Source: Collinsella sp. BA40 (GTDB lineage Bacteria; Actinomycetota; Coriobacteriia; Coriobacteriales; Coriobacteriaceae). Taken from it: 64,000 nucleotides of DNA. The notes below the pieces were generated by a model that worked only from the letters and a program-made list of their open reading frames with translations, was not told where the DNA came from and did no database searches. The stretch lies in NCBI RefSeq assembly GCF_008014645.1, contig NZ_VOWY01000007.1, positions 186,001 through 250,000 on the forward strand, given 5' to 3'. Both the position numbers and the translations under genes were made by a program. Shown piece after piece: positions 1,214 through 59,318 of the stretch; the first letter of the stretch is position 1; each line of letters starts with the position of its first letter.

Positions 1214-1960
1214 CTAGAGGAGCGCGCCCGCGCAGACGAGCGCGGCTGCCGCGACGCAGGCGGCCATATCGGCGCCGCGCATCGGATAGCGCTTGTAGGC
1301 GCTGTCGCGCCCGCGCAGGTAGAAGCCGCGCTGCTCGGCTGCCAGCGCGCTGGCGTCGGTCTTGGCCACCGACGAGAGCAGCAGCGGAATGCAGAGCGGC
1401 AGCATGAGCCGCATCTTCTTGAGCGGGTTCTTGGTGTCGAACGCCACGCCGCGCGCGGTCTGGGCCTCCATGATGGCATCCATCTCCTGGCTGAATACGG
1501 GAACGAAGCGCAGCACGGTGGTGAAGGCGAATGCGTAGTGATAGGGGACGTGCAGGACCTCGACGCAGGCGTTGGCGAGGTCGTTGGGGCGGGTCACCAT
1601 GAGCGCGAGCACGAGCGGCAGGGCCACGCCCAGCAGGCGCAGGCTGGCCCGCGCGCCCGAGGCGACGCCTTCCGTGGTGAAGAAGGCGAAGAGGGGGGCG
1701 CCGCCCTGGACGAAGACCGATTGCAGCACGAGCATGAGCAGGGCGAGGGGCGCGAGCACCCGTAGGAGCGAGGCGAGGCGACCGAGCACGCCCGCGTAGG
1801 CTCCCAGGGCGAGCGTGAGCGCCAGGAGCCCGATGAGCGCGGGGAAGCTTTGCGCCAGGAAGGTCGCGACGATGATGCCCGTGGCGAGCGCGAGCTTGCT
1901 GACGGGGTTGAGGCGGTGCAGGAACGTGGCGCCGTCGACGTAGTCGATCACGTTAATCAT
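1214..1960 (-). CDS. ecfT: ECF transporter transmembrane T component
   Basis: Integral membrane coupling subunit of an energy-coupling factor importer. It links ATP hydrolysis by EcfA to movement of the substrate-binding S component. The 248-residue protein has several hydrophobic segments and the two short Ala-x-x-x-Arg-Gly coupling motifs of the family (AQTARG near residue 170, AAEQRG near 210), which contact the ATPases. Its start overlaps the end of the ATPase gene by 8 bases, so translation is probably coupled. It is last in the S-A-T operon, whose transcription is predicted to be set by the tryptophan leader at 4550-4621. Confidence 0.88.
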   Translation of the reverse strand: MINVIDYVDGATFLHRLNPVSKLALATGIIVATFLAQSFPALIGLLALTLALGAYAGVLGRLASLLRVLAPLALLMLVLQSVFVQGGAPLFAFFTTEGVASGARASLRLLGVALPLVLALMVTRPNDLANACVEVLHVPYHYAFAFTTVLRFVPVFSQEMDAIMEAQTARGVAFDTKNPLKKMRLMLPLCIPLLLSSVAKTDASALAAEQRGFYLRGRDSAYKRYPMRGADMAACVAAAALVCAGALL

Positions 1961-3746
1961 GGTGGATCAGCTCCTTGCAGGTGGCAACGATATCGGAGAC
2001 CTCGGTGATGGGGGCGAAGCGCGGCGAGACGCGCGCGGCCAGCTCGCCGGCCAGGGCGCAAACCTGGGGCGGCGCGATGCTGGCGGCGTCCATGAGCGGG
2101 GCGTTCGAGAACACCTCGCGCGTCGTTCCCGCGCCGATGATGCGGCCGCCCGCCATGACGACCAGGCGGTCGGCGAAGTCCGAGACGACCTCCATGTCGT
2201 GGCACACCATAAGCACGGCGCTGCCGCGGCGGGCCATCTCGCGCACGGCGCGCATCACGGTCATGCACTCCCTATAGTCGAGGCCGCTGGTGGGCTCGTC
2301 GAGGATGACGAGCTTCGGATCGAGGGCGACGACCGAGGCCAGGGCCACGAGCTGGCGCTGGCCGCGCGAGAGCGCGAACGGCGCGCGGTCGGGGTCGAGG
2401 CCGAAGCGCCGCGCGGCCTCTTCCGCGCGGACGCGGGCCTGCTCGGCGGGGGTGCCGTGGAGCTCGAGGCCGAAGGCGATCTCGTCGCGGACGGTTTCTT
2501 GGCAGATCTGGCGGTCGGGGTTTTGGAAGAGCGTCGCGGCGTGCCGGGCGATGTGCGATACGGGCGTGCTTCGGGTGTCCAGGCCGGCTACGAGCACGCG
2601 CCCGCCATTCGGCTTGAGCAGGCCGTTGACGAGCTTGGTGAGGGTCGTCTTGCCGGCGCCGTTTTGACCTACGACGCCTACGATCTCGCCCGCGCGCACC
2701 TCCAGGTCGAGGTCGCGCACGCTGCTGCCGCCCTGGGGATAGGCAAACGATGCGCCCTCGATCCGCAGGGTCGCGGGAGCCGATCCGCCCGCGGCGCCGG
2801 CGGGGTCGGGGCGGCTGCAGGCGGTCCCGCCCGCCATGGGCTTGCAGGCGGGGCCATGCGGTGCTGCGACAGGCACTGCCCGCTGTTCGCTACCGGCAGA
2901 GACGATCGATTCGACGAGCCGGACGGCCTCGTCCACGTTGAGGCACGGACGGCTCTCGCGTGCAAGGCCGCGCTCGACGAGGCTGTTGTACACGCGCGTC
3001 ACGCGGGGGCAGTCCACGCCTATGCGCCGCAGGGCCCGGGCGTGCGCGAACACCTCGCGCGGAGCGCCGTCCAACGCAATGGAGCCATCGTCCATAACCA
3101 CCACGCGGCTGCAGTATTCCGAGAGCAGCGCCACCATCTGCTCGACCACCACGATGGTCACGCCGTGGTCCCGGTTGATGGCGCGCAGGGTGTCGAAGAC
3201 GAGGCGGGCGCTGCCGGGGTCGAGGGCCGAGGTGGGCTCGTCCAGAACGAGGACGCGCGGCCGGAGCGCGAGGATGGCCGCGATGGCGACCTTTTGCTTC
3301 TGCCCGCCCGAGAGCGTGGCGATCTGGCGTGCGCGCAGCTCGCGGATGCCCGTGGTGGCAAGCGCCTCGTCGACGCGCGCCTCGATCTGCTCGCGGGACA
3401 CGCCGAAGTTCTCGAGGCCGAACAGCAGCTCGTCCTCGACGACCGAGGCCACCATCTGCGCGTCGATGTCCTGTCCCACGCTTCCTACCGTACGGGCGAT
3501 GTCGGTGAGCGTGATCTCGCAGGTGTCGTGTCCGGCAACGTGGACGGCGCCGTAGAGGGCGCCGCGGTGATGGTGCGGTATGGCGCCCGATAGCGCCGCG
3601 GCCAGCGTGGACTTGCCGGCGCCCGAGGGCCCGATCACGCCCACGAACGCCCCGGGTTCGATCGCGAGCGTGACGTCGCGAAGCGCGGGCTCCTTCGCAT
3701 GCTGGTAGAAGAACGAGACGTGGTCGAGGGTGATGATGGGGTCCAT
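1953..3746 (-). CDS. ecfA: ECF transporter ATPase, two fused ABC domains
   Basis: Tandem ABC ATPase powering the ECF importer. Domain 1 has Walker A GPSGAGKS (about 39-46), signature LSGGQ (about 145) and Walker B VLVLDEPTSALD. Domain 2 has Walker A GQNGAGKT (about 360-367), signature LSRGQ and Walker B LVILDEPTSGLD. The two are joined by a Gly/Ala/Pro-rich linker. One 597-residue chain thus replaces the usual EcfA-EcfA' pair. The start at 3746 has AAAGG upstream; a start 63 bases earlier would only add a Pro/Arg-rich stretch. A dedicated S-A-T operon is the group I arrangement. Confidence 0.9.
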   Translation of the reverse strand: MDPIITLDHVSFFYQHAKEPALRDVTLAIEPGAFVGVIGPSGAGKSTLAAALSGAIPHHHRGALYGAVHVAGHDTCEITLTDIARTVGSVGQDIDAQMVASVVEDELLFGLENFGVSREQIEARVDEALATTGIRELRARQIATLSGGQKQKVAIAAILALRPRVLVLDEPTSALDPGSARLVFDTLRAINRDHGVTIVVVEQMVALLSEYCSRVVVMDDGSIALDGAPREVFAHARALRRIGVDCPRVTRVYNSLVERGLARESRPCLNVDEAVRLVESIVSAGSEQRAVPVAAPHGPACKPMAGGTACSRPDPAGAAGGSAPATLRIEGASFAYPQGGSSVRDLDLEVRAGEIVGVVGQNGAGKTTLTKLVNGLLKPNGGRVLVAGLDTRSTPVSHIARHAATLFQNPDRQICQETVRDEIAFGLELHGTPAEQARVRAEEAARRFGLDPDRAPFALSRGQRQLVALASVVALDPKLVILDEPTSGLDYRECMTVMRAVREMARRGSAVLMVCHDMEVVSDFADRLVVMAGGRIIGAGTTREVFSNAPLMDAASIAPPQVCALAGELAARVSPRFAPITEVSDIVATCKELIHHD

Positions 3747-3819
3747 GGCTGCCTTTCGGTGAGGGGCGGACGAGGGAGGTGCGGGCCGCGCGTCGTTTCG
3801 CGCGGGCATCGGGCGGCCG

Positions 3820-4383
3820 TTACTCGTCGATGCCGAGCGTGGTGCGAACGGGTCGGTAGAGCGCTTGCACCAGCAGGGCGTTGAAGACGGCGGTGGCCGT
3901 CACCACGGGCAGCATGGCGGCTGCAAGCTGGGTTGCCGCGCCCACCAGCGCCATCTTGATGCACATGAATATGACGCCCGAAAGCATGGTGGTGACGAAG
4001 GTGCCCGCCAGGGGTGTGATGCCGGCGGCGCGTCCGCGCATCCCGAGGCAAACGATGAGGGCCATCGCCACGGCCGCCGCGCCCTCCGCGGCGAAATCGA
4101 TGAACGGCGAGGTGGTGGTGAGCTGGATGATGGCGGCCGACATGATGCCGATGGCAAGGGCCTGGCGCAGCGTGGGGCGGATGAGCAGGATGGCGAGGCA
4201 GAACGCCGAGACGATGAACTCGGGGCTGATCATGCCCGCCGAAAGCGCCGAGATGGCCTTGCCCACGGTGAAGTTGAGGATGAACCCGGCGGCAAGCAGG
4301 ATGGCCAGCAGGACGAGCGAGCGGACATCGAGGTTCGCGCGGGCGGGAGCGGTGATGGTGCGGGGCTGGTCGTAGGGGGTCAT
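3820..4383 (-). CDS. ECF transporter substrate-binding S component, predicted for tryptophan
   Basis: A 187-residue, highly hydrophobic protein with about five or six membrane segments after a short polar N-terminus (about residues 1-20). It sits directly upstream of ecfA and ecfT on the same strand, so it is the operon's S component, the subunit that binds substrate. Sequence alone does not give the substrate. The evidence for tryptophan is regulatory: a leader peptide with three consecutive Trp codons and a terminator lie 100-240 bases upstream. A related compound such as a tryptophan precursor is possible. AAAGGA precedes the ATG. Confidence 0.72.
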   Translation of the reverse strand: MTPYDQPRTITAPARANLDVRSLVLLAILLAAGFILNFTVGKAISALSAGMISPEFIVSAFCLAILLIRPTLRQALAIGIMSAAIIQLTTTSPFIDFAAEGAAAVAMALIVCLGMRGRAAGITPLAGTFVTTMLSGVIFMCIKMALVGAATQLAAAMLPVVTATAVFNALLVQALYRPVRTTLGIDE

Positions 4384-4480
4384 GCGGGGTGCTTCCTTTC
4401 TGGCAGGGCGGCGTCGCTGCGGGCGGGGCGGGTGGCGGGGAGCTTGCCATCGGGGGATGGGGCGGGATGGGGGGCTTTGG

Positions 4481-4514
4481 AAAAAGAAAAAGGCCCCCGG
4501 TCAAACCGGAGGCC
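4481..4514 (-). terminator. attenuator terminator of the ECF operon
   Basis: On the minus strand a perfect 10-bp stem (one G-U pair) with a three-base loop occupies 4514-4492. It is followed by a run of U interrupted by one C (4491-4481). This is a canonical intrinsic terminator placed between the Trp leader peptide and the S-component gene. Confidence 0.9.
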
Positions 4515-4562
4515 TTGGTTGCGCTACAGGGGCTGGGGCGCGATAGGACTCACCTTTGACCG
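4498..4562 (-). promoter_or_regulatory. antiterminator pairing of the Trp attenuator
   Basis: The minus-strand sequence CGGTCAAA at 4562-4555, inside the last codons of the leader peptide, is exactly complementary to TTTGACCG at 4505-4498 in the loop and 3' arm of the terminator. The two pairings exclude each other. A ribosome stalled at the Trp codons (4588-4580) leaves 4562-4555 free to block the terminator. A ribosome reaching the stop codon at 4550 covers it and lets the terminator form. Confidence 0.75.
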
Positions 4563-4621
4563 ACCGAGATCGCATCGTGCCACCACCAGTTGTTGAGAGA
4601 GGCGTTCATCGTGCTCTGCAT
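4550..4621 (-). CDS. tryptophan leader peptide (23 codons, Trp-Trp-Trp)
   Basis: A short frame encodes 23 residues with three consecutive TGG codons at positions 12-14, and ends in TGA. A strong ribosome-binding site (AAAGGAG at 4636-4630, 8 bases from the ATG) shows that it is meant to be translated. Met5 is a second possible start. It lies between a sigma-70-like promoter (4677-4704) and an intrinsic terminator (4481-4514). This is the arrangement of trpL-type attenuators: scarce Trp-tRNA stalls the ribosome on the Trp codons and permits read-through into the ECF genes. No trp biosynthetic gene is nearby, so the controlled function is transport. Confidence 0.88.
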   Translation of the reverse strand: MQSTMNASLNNWWWHDAISVGQR

Positions 4622-4676
4622 GGTGTTGGCTCCTTTCGGTCCGTCGGGGGCGGGGCGCCCGCTGTACTTGGGCGAG

Positions 4677-4704
4677 ACTATAGCACACGGCTCGCGCCGC
4701 GCAA
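4677..4704 (-). promoter_or_regulatory. promoter for the Trp leader and ECF operon
   Basis: Minus strand: TTGCGC (4704-4699), 16-base spacer, TATAGT (4682-4677). The predicted [15 protein letters not shown] near 4670 leaves about 50 bases before the leader ATG. It lies in the gap after the lipid kinase stop codon. Confidence 0.6.
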
Positions 4705-4759
4705 GGAACGATTGCGTATCGTTGCGGATACGTTTCGCCGAACGGCGCGGCCGGCGAAG

Positions 4760-5677
4760 CTAGGCGCCGAGTTTGGAGAACTCGTCGACGATGAGGTCGA
4801 GGCAGGCGGGCAGGGCCCGGGCGCTGAACGAGCCGGCGTTGCTGGGAATGAGCTCGCCATCGAACTGCATGCCCAGCGAGGGCGTGCAGGTGATCGCGGC
4901 CTCGCGCGCCTGGAAGAGCGTGAACTGCGGGCGGCCCAGGCCGGTGCCCGCGCGGTCGAGCACGCCCGCCAGCAGCGTGGGCAGGAGCTCGACCGTCTTG
5001 GCCGGCTCGATCACCGCGATGTCGATGAGGCCGTCGTTCATGTGGCATCCGGGGAAGAGGTTGATCTCGTTTTGGATCACCGACGTATTGCCCACCATGC
5101 ATCCGATGCCGTCGAGCTCGTGCGTTTCGCCGTCGCATTCGATGGTGAAGTGCGCTACCTGCGGAGAGGGCGTTGCCAGGGCCGAGAGCATATAGGCGAT
5201 CTCGCCCATCTCGCCCTTCGTGGCCTCTGCTTTCTGCATGATGGTGGCGTCGAAGCCCGTGCCGGCTATGATGATGAATCCGTGGCTGCGCTCGGCTCCC
5301 GTCTCGTCCACCCAGCTCATCTCGCCCATATCGGCCTTCACGGTGCGCCCGGCGCGGCACGCCTTGGCAAGCGCCGCGGCCTCGGGCGCGTTGCCGATGT
5401 TGTTGAAGAACAGGTTGGCGGTTCCCGACGGGAATACCAGGATGGGCACGTGTACGTTGCGCAGGCAGTTGAGCATGTTGGAAACGCTGCCGTCGCCACC
5501 CGATACCACGATGCGGTCGAAGGAGGCCGCATCGCTCGTGGCGTCCTCGGGCTCCATGCCCACGCCTATGAAGCGCATGACGATTTCATCCCCCGGCGCG
5601 CTGAGCGCGTGGGCGAAGGCGAAGATCTCGTCCGAACGCGGGCCGGATGCGGGGTTGTGGATGATGAGGAAGCGCAT
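4760..5677 (-). CDS. diacylglycerol/lipid kinase family protein
   Basis: A 305-residue cytoplasmic lipid kinase of the DagK/YegS/BmrU type, which uses ATP to phosphorylate diacylglycerol or a similar lipid. The N-terminal catalytic domain shows NPASG (about 8-12), the nucleotide-binding GGDGS (60-64) and PSGTANLF (about 83-90). The C-terminal half is the family's beta-rich domain with a conserved acidic FDGE near residue 273. It is complete, on the same strand as the ECF operon but separated from it by that operon's own promoter. The substrate is not certain; salvage of diacylglycerol from lipid turnover is the usual role. Confidence 0.85.
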   Translation of the reverse strand: MRFLIIHNPASGPRSDEIFAFAHALSAPGDEIVMRFIGVGMEPEDATSDAASFDRIVVSGGDGSVSNMLNCLRNVHVPILVFPSGTANLFFNNIGNAPEAAALAKACRAGRTVKADMGEMSWVDETGAERSHGFIIIAGTGFDATIMQKAEATKGEMGEIAYMLSALATPSPQVAHFTIECDGETHELDGIGCMVGNTSVIQNEINLFPGCHMNDGLIDIAVIEPAKTVELLPTLLAGVLDRAGTGLGRPQFTLFQAREAAITCTPSLGMQFDGELIPSNAGSFSARALPACLDLIVDEFSKLGA

Positions 5678-58954: not shown

Positions 58955-59318
58955 AAGGCAAAGCGGGCCGATAAGCCGGGTTCTGTCGCGGGCGATCATT
59001 TATCTTGCCTGCACGTCACCGTGCAGTTCCACGCACGCTACCCGAACGCGGACCGGGCCGGCCCATCGCGTTCCTATTTGCGCTTGCTCCGGATGGGGTT
59101 TACCAAGCCGCCATGTTGCCACGACGCTGGTGGTCTCTTACACCACCGTTTCAGCTTTTCCCTTTACGACGAGTCGTAGGTGGGAGTCTTCTTTTCTGCG
59201 GCACTTTCCGTCGGGTCGCCCCGCCTGGCCGTTAGCCAGCATCCTGCCCTGTGGAGCCCGGACTTTCCTCACATGCGAACATGCCGCACGCGCGATCGCC
59301 TGGCCCGCTTTGCGGGGG
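58955..59318 (-). ncRNA. rnpB: RNase P RNA, bacterial type A
   Basis: Catalytic RNA of RNase P, which cuts tRNA 5' leaders. On the minus strand the universal P4 5' segment GAGGAAAGTCCGGGCTCCAC and the 3' segment ACAGAACCCGGCTTAT are both present. The ends pair as stem P1: GCAAAGCGGGCC (59313-59302) with GGCCCGCTTTGC (58969-58958). About 360 nucleotides, as expected. TACAAT at 59326-59321 is a good -10 placed right before the 5' end; I found no clear -35. The 3' flank is modestly T-rich. Exact ends are uncertain by a few bases. Confidence 0.95.

Follow-up and report, generated by a model that had tools for sequence, protein, structure and literature searches.

A leader region on the minus strand of a 64-kb window from Collinsella sp. 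BA40 (the window being the whole 64,000-nucleotide stretch of DNA analysed) is best read as a ribosome-mediated, trpL-type transcription attenuator controlling an ECF tryptophan importer, a reading to which a probability of roughly 0.87 is assigned. The parts of the leader, their conservation and spacing, the alternative fold, the company of other genes in the regulon and the absence of Trp synthesis genes were computed here. They indicate that the leader ribosome probably stalls at Trp codons, that scarcity of charged tRNA-Trp probably raises uptake and that tryptophan is probably the substrate. The preliminary description had proposed ribosome attenuation at Trp codons, and the conservation of the leader, the arms of its antiterminator and the TrpP match of the S component all argue for it.

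An external supply of tryptophan, which host and microbes contest, seems to be needed by many of the common bacteria of the gut (Collinsella, Olsenella and their kin), and the leader offers a testable switch for its uptake. The reading would also assign tryptophan to a large number of ECF S components whose annotation is poor and provide a case of trpL-type control serving uptake and salvage instead of synthesis.

Proposed mechanism

In the proposed mechanism, the leader would be transcribed and translated simultaneously. With ample charged tRNA-Trp, the ribosome would reach the UGA stop codon and cover the 5' arm of the antiterminator (4562-4545); the terminator (4516-4481) would then form because the ribosome at the stop codon covers this arm, and transcription would end. 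With scarce charged tRNA-Trp, the ribosome would stall on the UGG triplet. Transcription would then continue because a ribosome on the Trp codons leaves the arm free to pair with the terminator's loop and the upper part of its stem, so that the terminator would be prevented from forming, and RNA polymerase would proceed into the S-A-T operon and raise tryptophan uptake. This would be the classical attenuation logic, with the arm placed inside the last codons of the leader. The coverage of the arm was assessed with the generally known length of a ribosome footprint.

Leader region

The promoter (4677..4704, minus strand) is made up of a -35-like TTGCGC at 4704-4699 and an extended -10 element, TGCTATAGT, whose TATAGT (4682-4677) is preceded by TG. 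The -10 is a good match, and most orthologues have it some 50 to 70 nt ahead of the start of the leader. The -35 is weak, with 3/6 consensus positions, and a consensus promoter scan did not call the pair. The promoter-like pair noted at the outset is thus borne out for its conserved -10 and found weak for its -35.

The ribosome-binding site AAAGGAG (4630..4636, minus strand), kept in orthologues, is followed by a leader peptide frame read directly from the sequence (4550..4621, minus strand). It begins with ATG at 4621, has 23 codons encoding MQSTMNASLNNWWWHDAISVGQR and ends with TGA at 4552-4550, and the pattern NWWWRD....GR is kept in about 80 loci. Three tandem UGG codons, seen in the sequence and in the orthologue comparison, form the proposed stall site (4580..4588, minus strand). 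The intrinsic terminator (4481..4516, minus strand) consists of AAGGCCTCCGGT and ACCGGGGGCCTT around TTG, which form a 12-pair stem at 4516-4490, and a T-rich tail (U-rich in the RNA) running to 4481. It stands about 100 nt before the S-A-T ECF operon and is the one terminator-like site found in 4380-4800, where shuffled sequences gave 0.4. The strong ribosome-binding site, 23-codon frame, tandem Trp codons and terminator first described for this region are therefore all present in the sequence. The short translated Trp-rich leader of a trpL-type attenuator corresponds here to the predicted 23-codon WWW frame with its strong ribosome-binding site and its conservation, and an intrinsic terminator lies between this leader and the first structural gene, as in that type.

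The window holds 13 ATG frames of 8-40 codons that are led by a ribosome-binding site, and WWW occurs in the leader alone; even two adjacent Trp codons are absent from every other such frame in the 64 kb. No WWW frame appeared in 30 windows simulated with matching dinucleotide content. The stability of the window's full leader fold against shuffled sequences is unremarkable (z -1.1). Rfam matches to the leader (ctRNA_p42d and others) sit on the terminator far below gathering scores and were rejected.

Antiterminator and alternative fold

The 5' arm of the antiterminator, CGGUCAAA...GAGUCCU (4545..4562, minus strand), runs across the final codons of the leader and its stop codon and starts about 17 nt past the last UGG. 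Its 3' arm, AGGCCUC...UUUGACCG (4498..4515, minus strand), overlaps the terminator stem. Six codons lead from the last Trp codon to a Gly codon, a spacing that is nearly invariant among orthologues and is kept even where one Trp codon has been lost (WW at L029, WAW at L073). Together with the base in front of them, the Gly-Arg/Gln codons have the sequence CGGUC(GA/AA); its partner (UC/UU)GACCG is supplied by the terminator's loop and the upper 3' side of its stem, so that pairing of the Gly codon's GGUC with the terminator yields the antiterminator. For the folding of 55 orthologue RNAs, the sequence used ran from the border of a ribosome halted at the Trp codons to the point before terminator closure, and nearly all formed a common long-range antiterminator, often lengthened by GAGUC:G(G)CUC.

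In the terminator, 5/11 counted pairs changed on both sides. Re-pairing of antiterminator arms among the trpP leaders alone gave no signal, with 762/5000 re-pairings as good as the native ones, because the antiterminator core is invariant or nearly so and leaves little covariation; for the window by itself, a shuffled 5' arm equalled the native one in 134/2000 trials. In a set of 70 leaders, where those of trpP were joined by trpB-like, NSS and divergent ones so as to cover several types of gene, none of the 5000 re-pairings did as well as the native pairs, and the 15 non-standard leaders outside the main group gave this result by themselves too. These counts serve as a guide and not as probabilities, because related sequences are not independent. 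Among the added leaders, those before trpB-like genes carry the arm CGGAUUA or CGGAC with UAAUCCG or GUCCG in the terminator. The divergent leader L084 (G251 C7) ends right after WWWRTIS and has an unrelated terminator sequence, with the pair ACUCUGA:UCAGAGU keeping the switch logic. An antiterminator mutually exclusive with the terminator, as in a trpL-type attenuator, is thus indicated by the position of the arms, the folds and the re-pairing tests; the initial account of the leader as an attenuator gains from this comparison a pair of conserved and, across leaders of different genes, co-varying arms.

Conservation among relatives

Relatives of the S component are present in 164/298 genomes of the class. 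From 47 leaders a covariance model, R1, was made that detects the leader element in 54/54 genomes with an S gene in the window's family and in 50/53 in a sister family (both hand counts from the match lists), and the named records with a leader include Collinsella, Olsenella, Atopobium, Thermophilibacter and relatives. Leader, spacing and terminator are kept in about 80 loci. The orthologue comparison suggested in the preliminary description was therefore carried out, and it finds Trp codons and terminator conserved upstream of orthologous S genes. One of the three sister-family exceptions is the genome with the divergent WWW leader described above (G251, L084). Most S relatives in Eggerthellaceae, which are 33-42% identical, have no leader. 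No strong R1 match lies outside Coriobacteriales in a 396-genome sample of the phylum, where the best value was 2.4e-6 in G438.

In one genus of the sister family, two genomes (G194 and G188; L079 and L080) have trpA and an S gene with no WWW leader, and two others (G217 and G299) have the leader and nothing listed in the trpA search. Many relatives have a second S gene, about 46% identical to the first, which stands in tandem just downstream of it at L003, L004, L008, L033 and other loci; the search of the window's genome gave one S gene only. In G145, G149 and G299 an S copy lies inside an open frame of more than 800 aa and is probably fused to the ATPase.

Leaders before other tryptophan genes

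R1 also matches WWW- or WW-leaders with terminators upstream of genes for TrpB-like PLP enzymes (TIGR01415). Six of these loci were confirmed (L136-L138, L141, L145 and L146) and two were assigned by sequence appearance (L142 and L143), and their antiterminator pair, for example CGGAUUA:UAAUCCG, differs from that of the trpP leaders. In one Eggerthellaceae genus, WWW leaders precede NSS sodium-dependent transporters (L129, L131 and L134), a family that includes the tryptophan transporter TnaT (PMC2494555). The locus L134 (G109 C1:1549500-1553600) brings together within 2 kb an NSS gene with its WWW leader and a trpP ECF operon with a WWW leader of its own. At L138 (G213 C13:1-4200) a WWW leader is followed by a trpB-like gene and then by a fusion of S component and ECF ATPase in one operon, an arrangement that may place salvage of indole or tryptophan and its uptake under one attenuator. 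Because such leaders precede trpB-like and NSS genes, WWW leaders are tied to tryptophan independently of the annotation of S.

Partial R1 matches covering positions 42-108 were regarded as terminators, and the weak matches L149 and L150 in the window's own genome, like L147 and L148, are tRNA genes followed by terminators and were rejected as leaders. No further leader of the same type was recognised in the window's genome. The trp biosynthesis regions of seven relatives contain no WWW leader with a terminator; one of the seven carries a T-box (Rfam RF00230, L225 1431-1708), which is absent from the other six. A tryptophan-salvage regulon of Coriobacteriales governed by ribosome-mediated attenuation is a reasonably likely interpretation, in which related WWW leaders with their own co-varying antiterminators would act on ECF-TrpP, NSS and trpB-like indole-salvage genes and the trp biosynthesis operons would seemingly stand outside.

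Transporter and substrate

The operon downstream of the leader has the order S, A-A, T proposed for it and forms a self-contained ECF operon on the minus strand. It encodes a TrpP-like S component of 187 aa (3820..4383), a fused tandem ECF ATPase A1-A2 of 618 aa (1953..3809; TIGR04520 and TIGR04521) and a T component of the CbiQ family of 248 aa (1214..1960; PF02361). The S component scores 27.8 bits against Pfam TrpP (PF17099) with a cut-off of 27.2, which is marginal for a single protein, and 26/29 members of the S orthologue alignment match the family at E 0.01 or better. Its predicted model (pLDDT 82.7) has ECF S components (ThiT, RibU, FolT and others) as its best 13 PDB matches, all of them modest (Foldseek E 0.02 or worse, TM 0.42-0.62). 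Helix 1 contains, within LLAILLAAG, the AxxxA motif by which S components dock on the T component (PMC11109136). The B. subtilis member of the TrpP family imports tryptophan (PMC13170310) and has been classed as an ECF S protein (PMC11487621).

Model searches for trpA, trpC and trpB-like genes found none in the window's whole assembly (99.99% complete), and the same models match in all control genomes. The observation that no trp biosynthesis gene lies nearby thus extends, for these models, to the entire assembly. Because these genes were not detected, the organism is probably a tryptophan auxotroph.

The attenuator could be real and the S component carry another cargo, for example a Trp dipeptide, indole or a different aromatic compound. 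The marginal TrpP score would allow this, and the WWW-led operon of G213 (L138), with its trpB-like gene and S-ATPase fusion, would suit indole uptake. However, TrpP homologues import tryptophan, and with no detectable trpB-like gene the window's organism could not use indole to make tryptophan, so that a different cargo is quite unlikely. Since no enzyme for converting indole to tryptophan was found, indole or another precursor is an improbable substrate in this genome, and this together with the probable auxotrophy makes tryptophan itself the most likely natural substrate. Of the substrates first suggested, tryptophan or a close precursor, the former is thus favoured by the family match and the latter is not, and the S component is most likely a subunit of an ECF tryptophan importer.

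Mode of sensing

In a TnaC-like arrangement, an excess of free tryptophan would stall the ribosome near the stop codon and turn the operon on. The leaders have a similar length of about 20-30 codons, and the conserved C-terminal tail RD....GR could be a nascent-chain stall motif. The RNA, however, accounts for the conservation of this tail, as its Gly-Arg/Gln codons make up the antiterminator arm; the leaders before trpB-like genes and NSS transporters keep the RNA pairing although their peptides have a different tail or none. A ribosome halted near the stop codon would moreover mask the arm and so promote termination, and a run of three Trp codons suits the sensing of tRNA charge, which makes sensing of free tryptophan very improbable. 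Terminators between operons are common, but a reading without regulation, in which the terminator would serve the gene upstream and the small frame would have arisen by chance or encode an unrelated peptide, is refuted in practice by the joint conservation of promoter, leader, spacing and both hairpins well beyond the genus and by the recurrence of WWW leaders before other tryptophan genes. The leader has no match to the T-box family (Rfam RF00230).

Relation to known systems

Trp attenuators are known in Actinobacteria for trp operons and a trpS (PMC1262725). They resemble the attenuator proposed here in having a leader peptide with a UGG double or triple, a GC-rich terminator and an alternative antiterminator hairpin. 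Those attenuators control trp biosynthesis operons and a trpS, whereas that of the window would control an ECF importer, and their conserved triple gGCC-rGCy-GGCC contrasts with CGGUC(GA):(UY)GACCG here. B. subtilis TrpP (YhaG) shares the PF17099 family and imports tryptophan with an ECF module, but that module is a general one and here the S-A-T operon is dedicated. Its trpP is translationally repressed by the TRAP protein (PMC13170310), in contrast to the ribosome-sensed attenuator proposed here. In Firmicutes, tryptophan-sensing T-boxes stand before transporters (PMC2494555, PMC9382623). They likewise sense the charging of tRNA-Trp and raise uptake, as is proposed here, but they bind the tRNA directly, whereas here a leader peptide is predicted to be translated. 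The tnaC leader of E. coli also encodes a Trp-containing peptide before a tryptophan operon. It responds to an excess of free tryptophan through Rho, in contrast to the intrinsic terminator and three tandem Trp codons found here.

Searches of the literature, which took in few subscription papers, found no description of an ECF importer under a Trp leader-peptide attenuator, or of any such attenuator in Coriobacteriales; this is weak evidence of absence. The attenuation mechanism and the link between TrpP and ECF transport are each known, and their combination, with a Coriobacteriales salvage regulon, appears on that weak evidence to be unreported. The notability first claimed for the system is tempered to this extent: ECF uptake of tryptophan (PMC11487621) and actinobacterial trp attenuators (PMC1262725) were already described, and what stands is the combination. 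Elsewhere in the window, a bacterial class A RNase P RNA (Rfam RF00010) lies at 58956-59311 on the minus strand.
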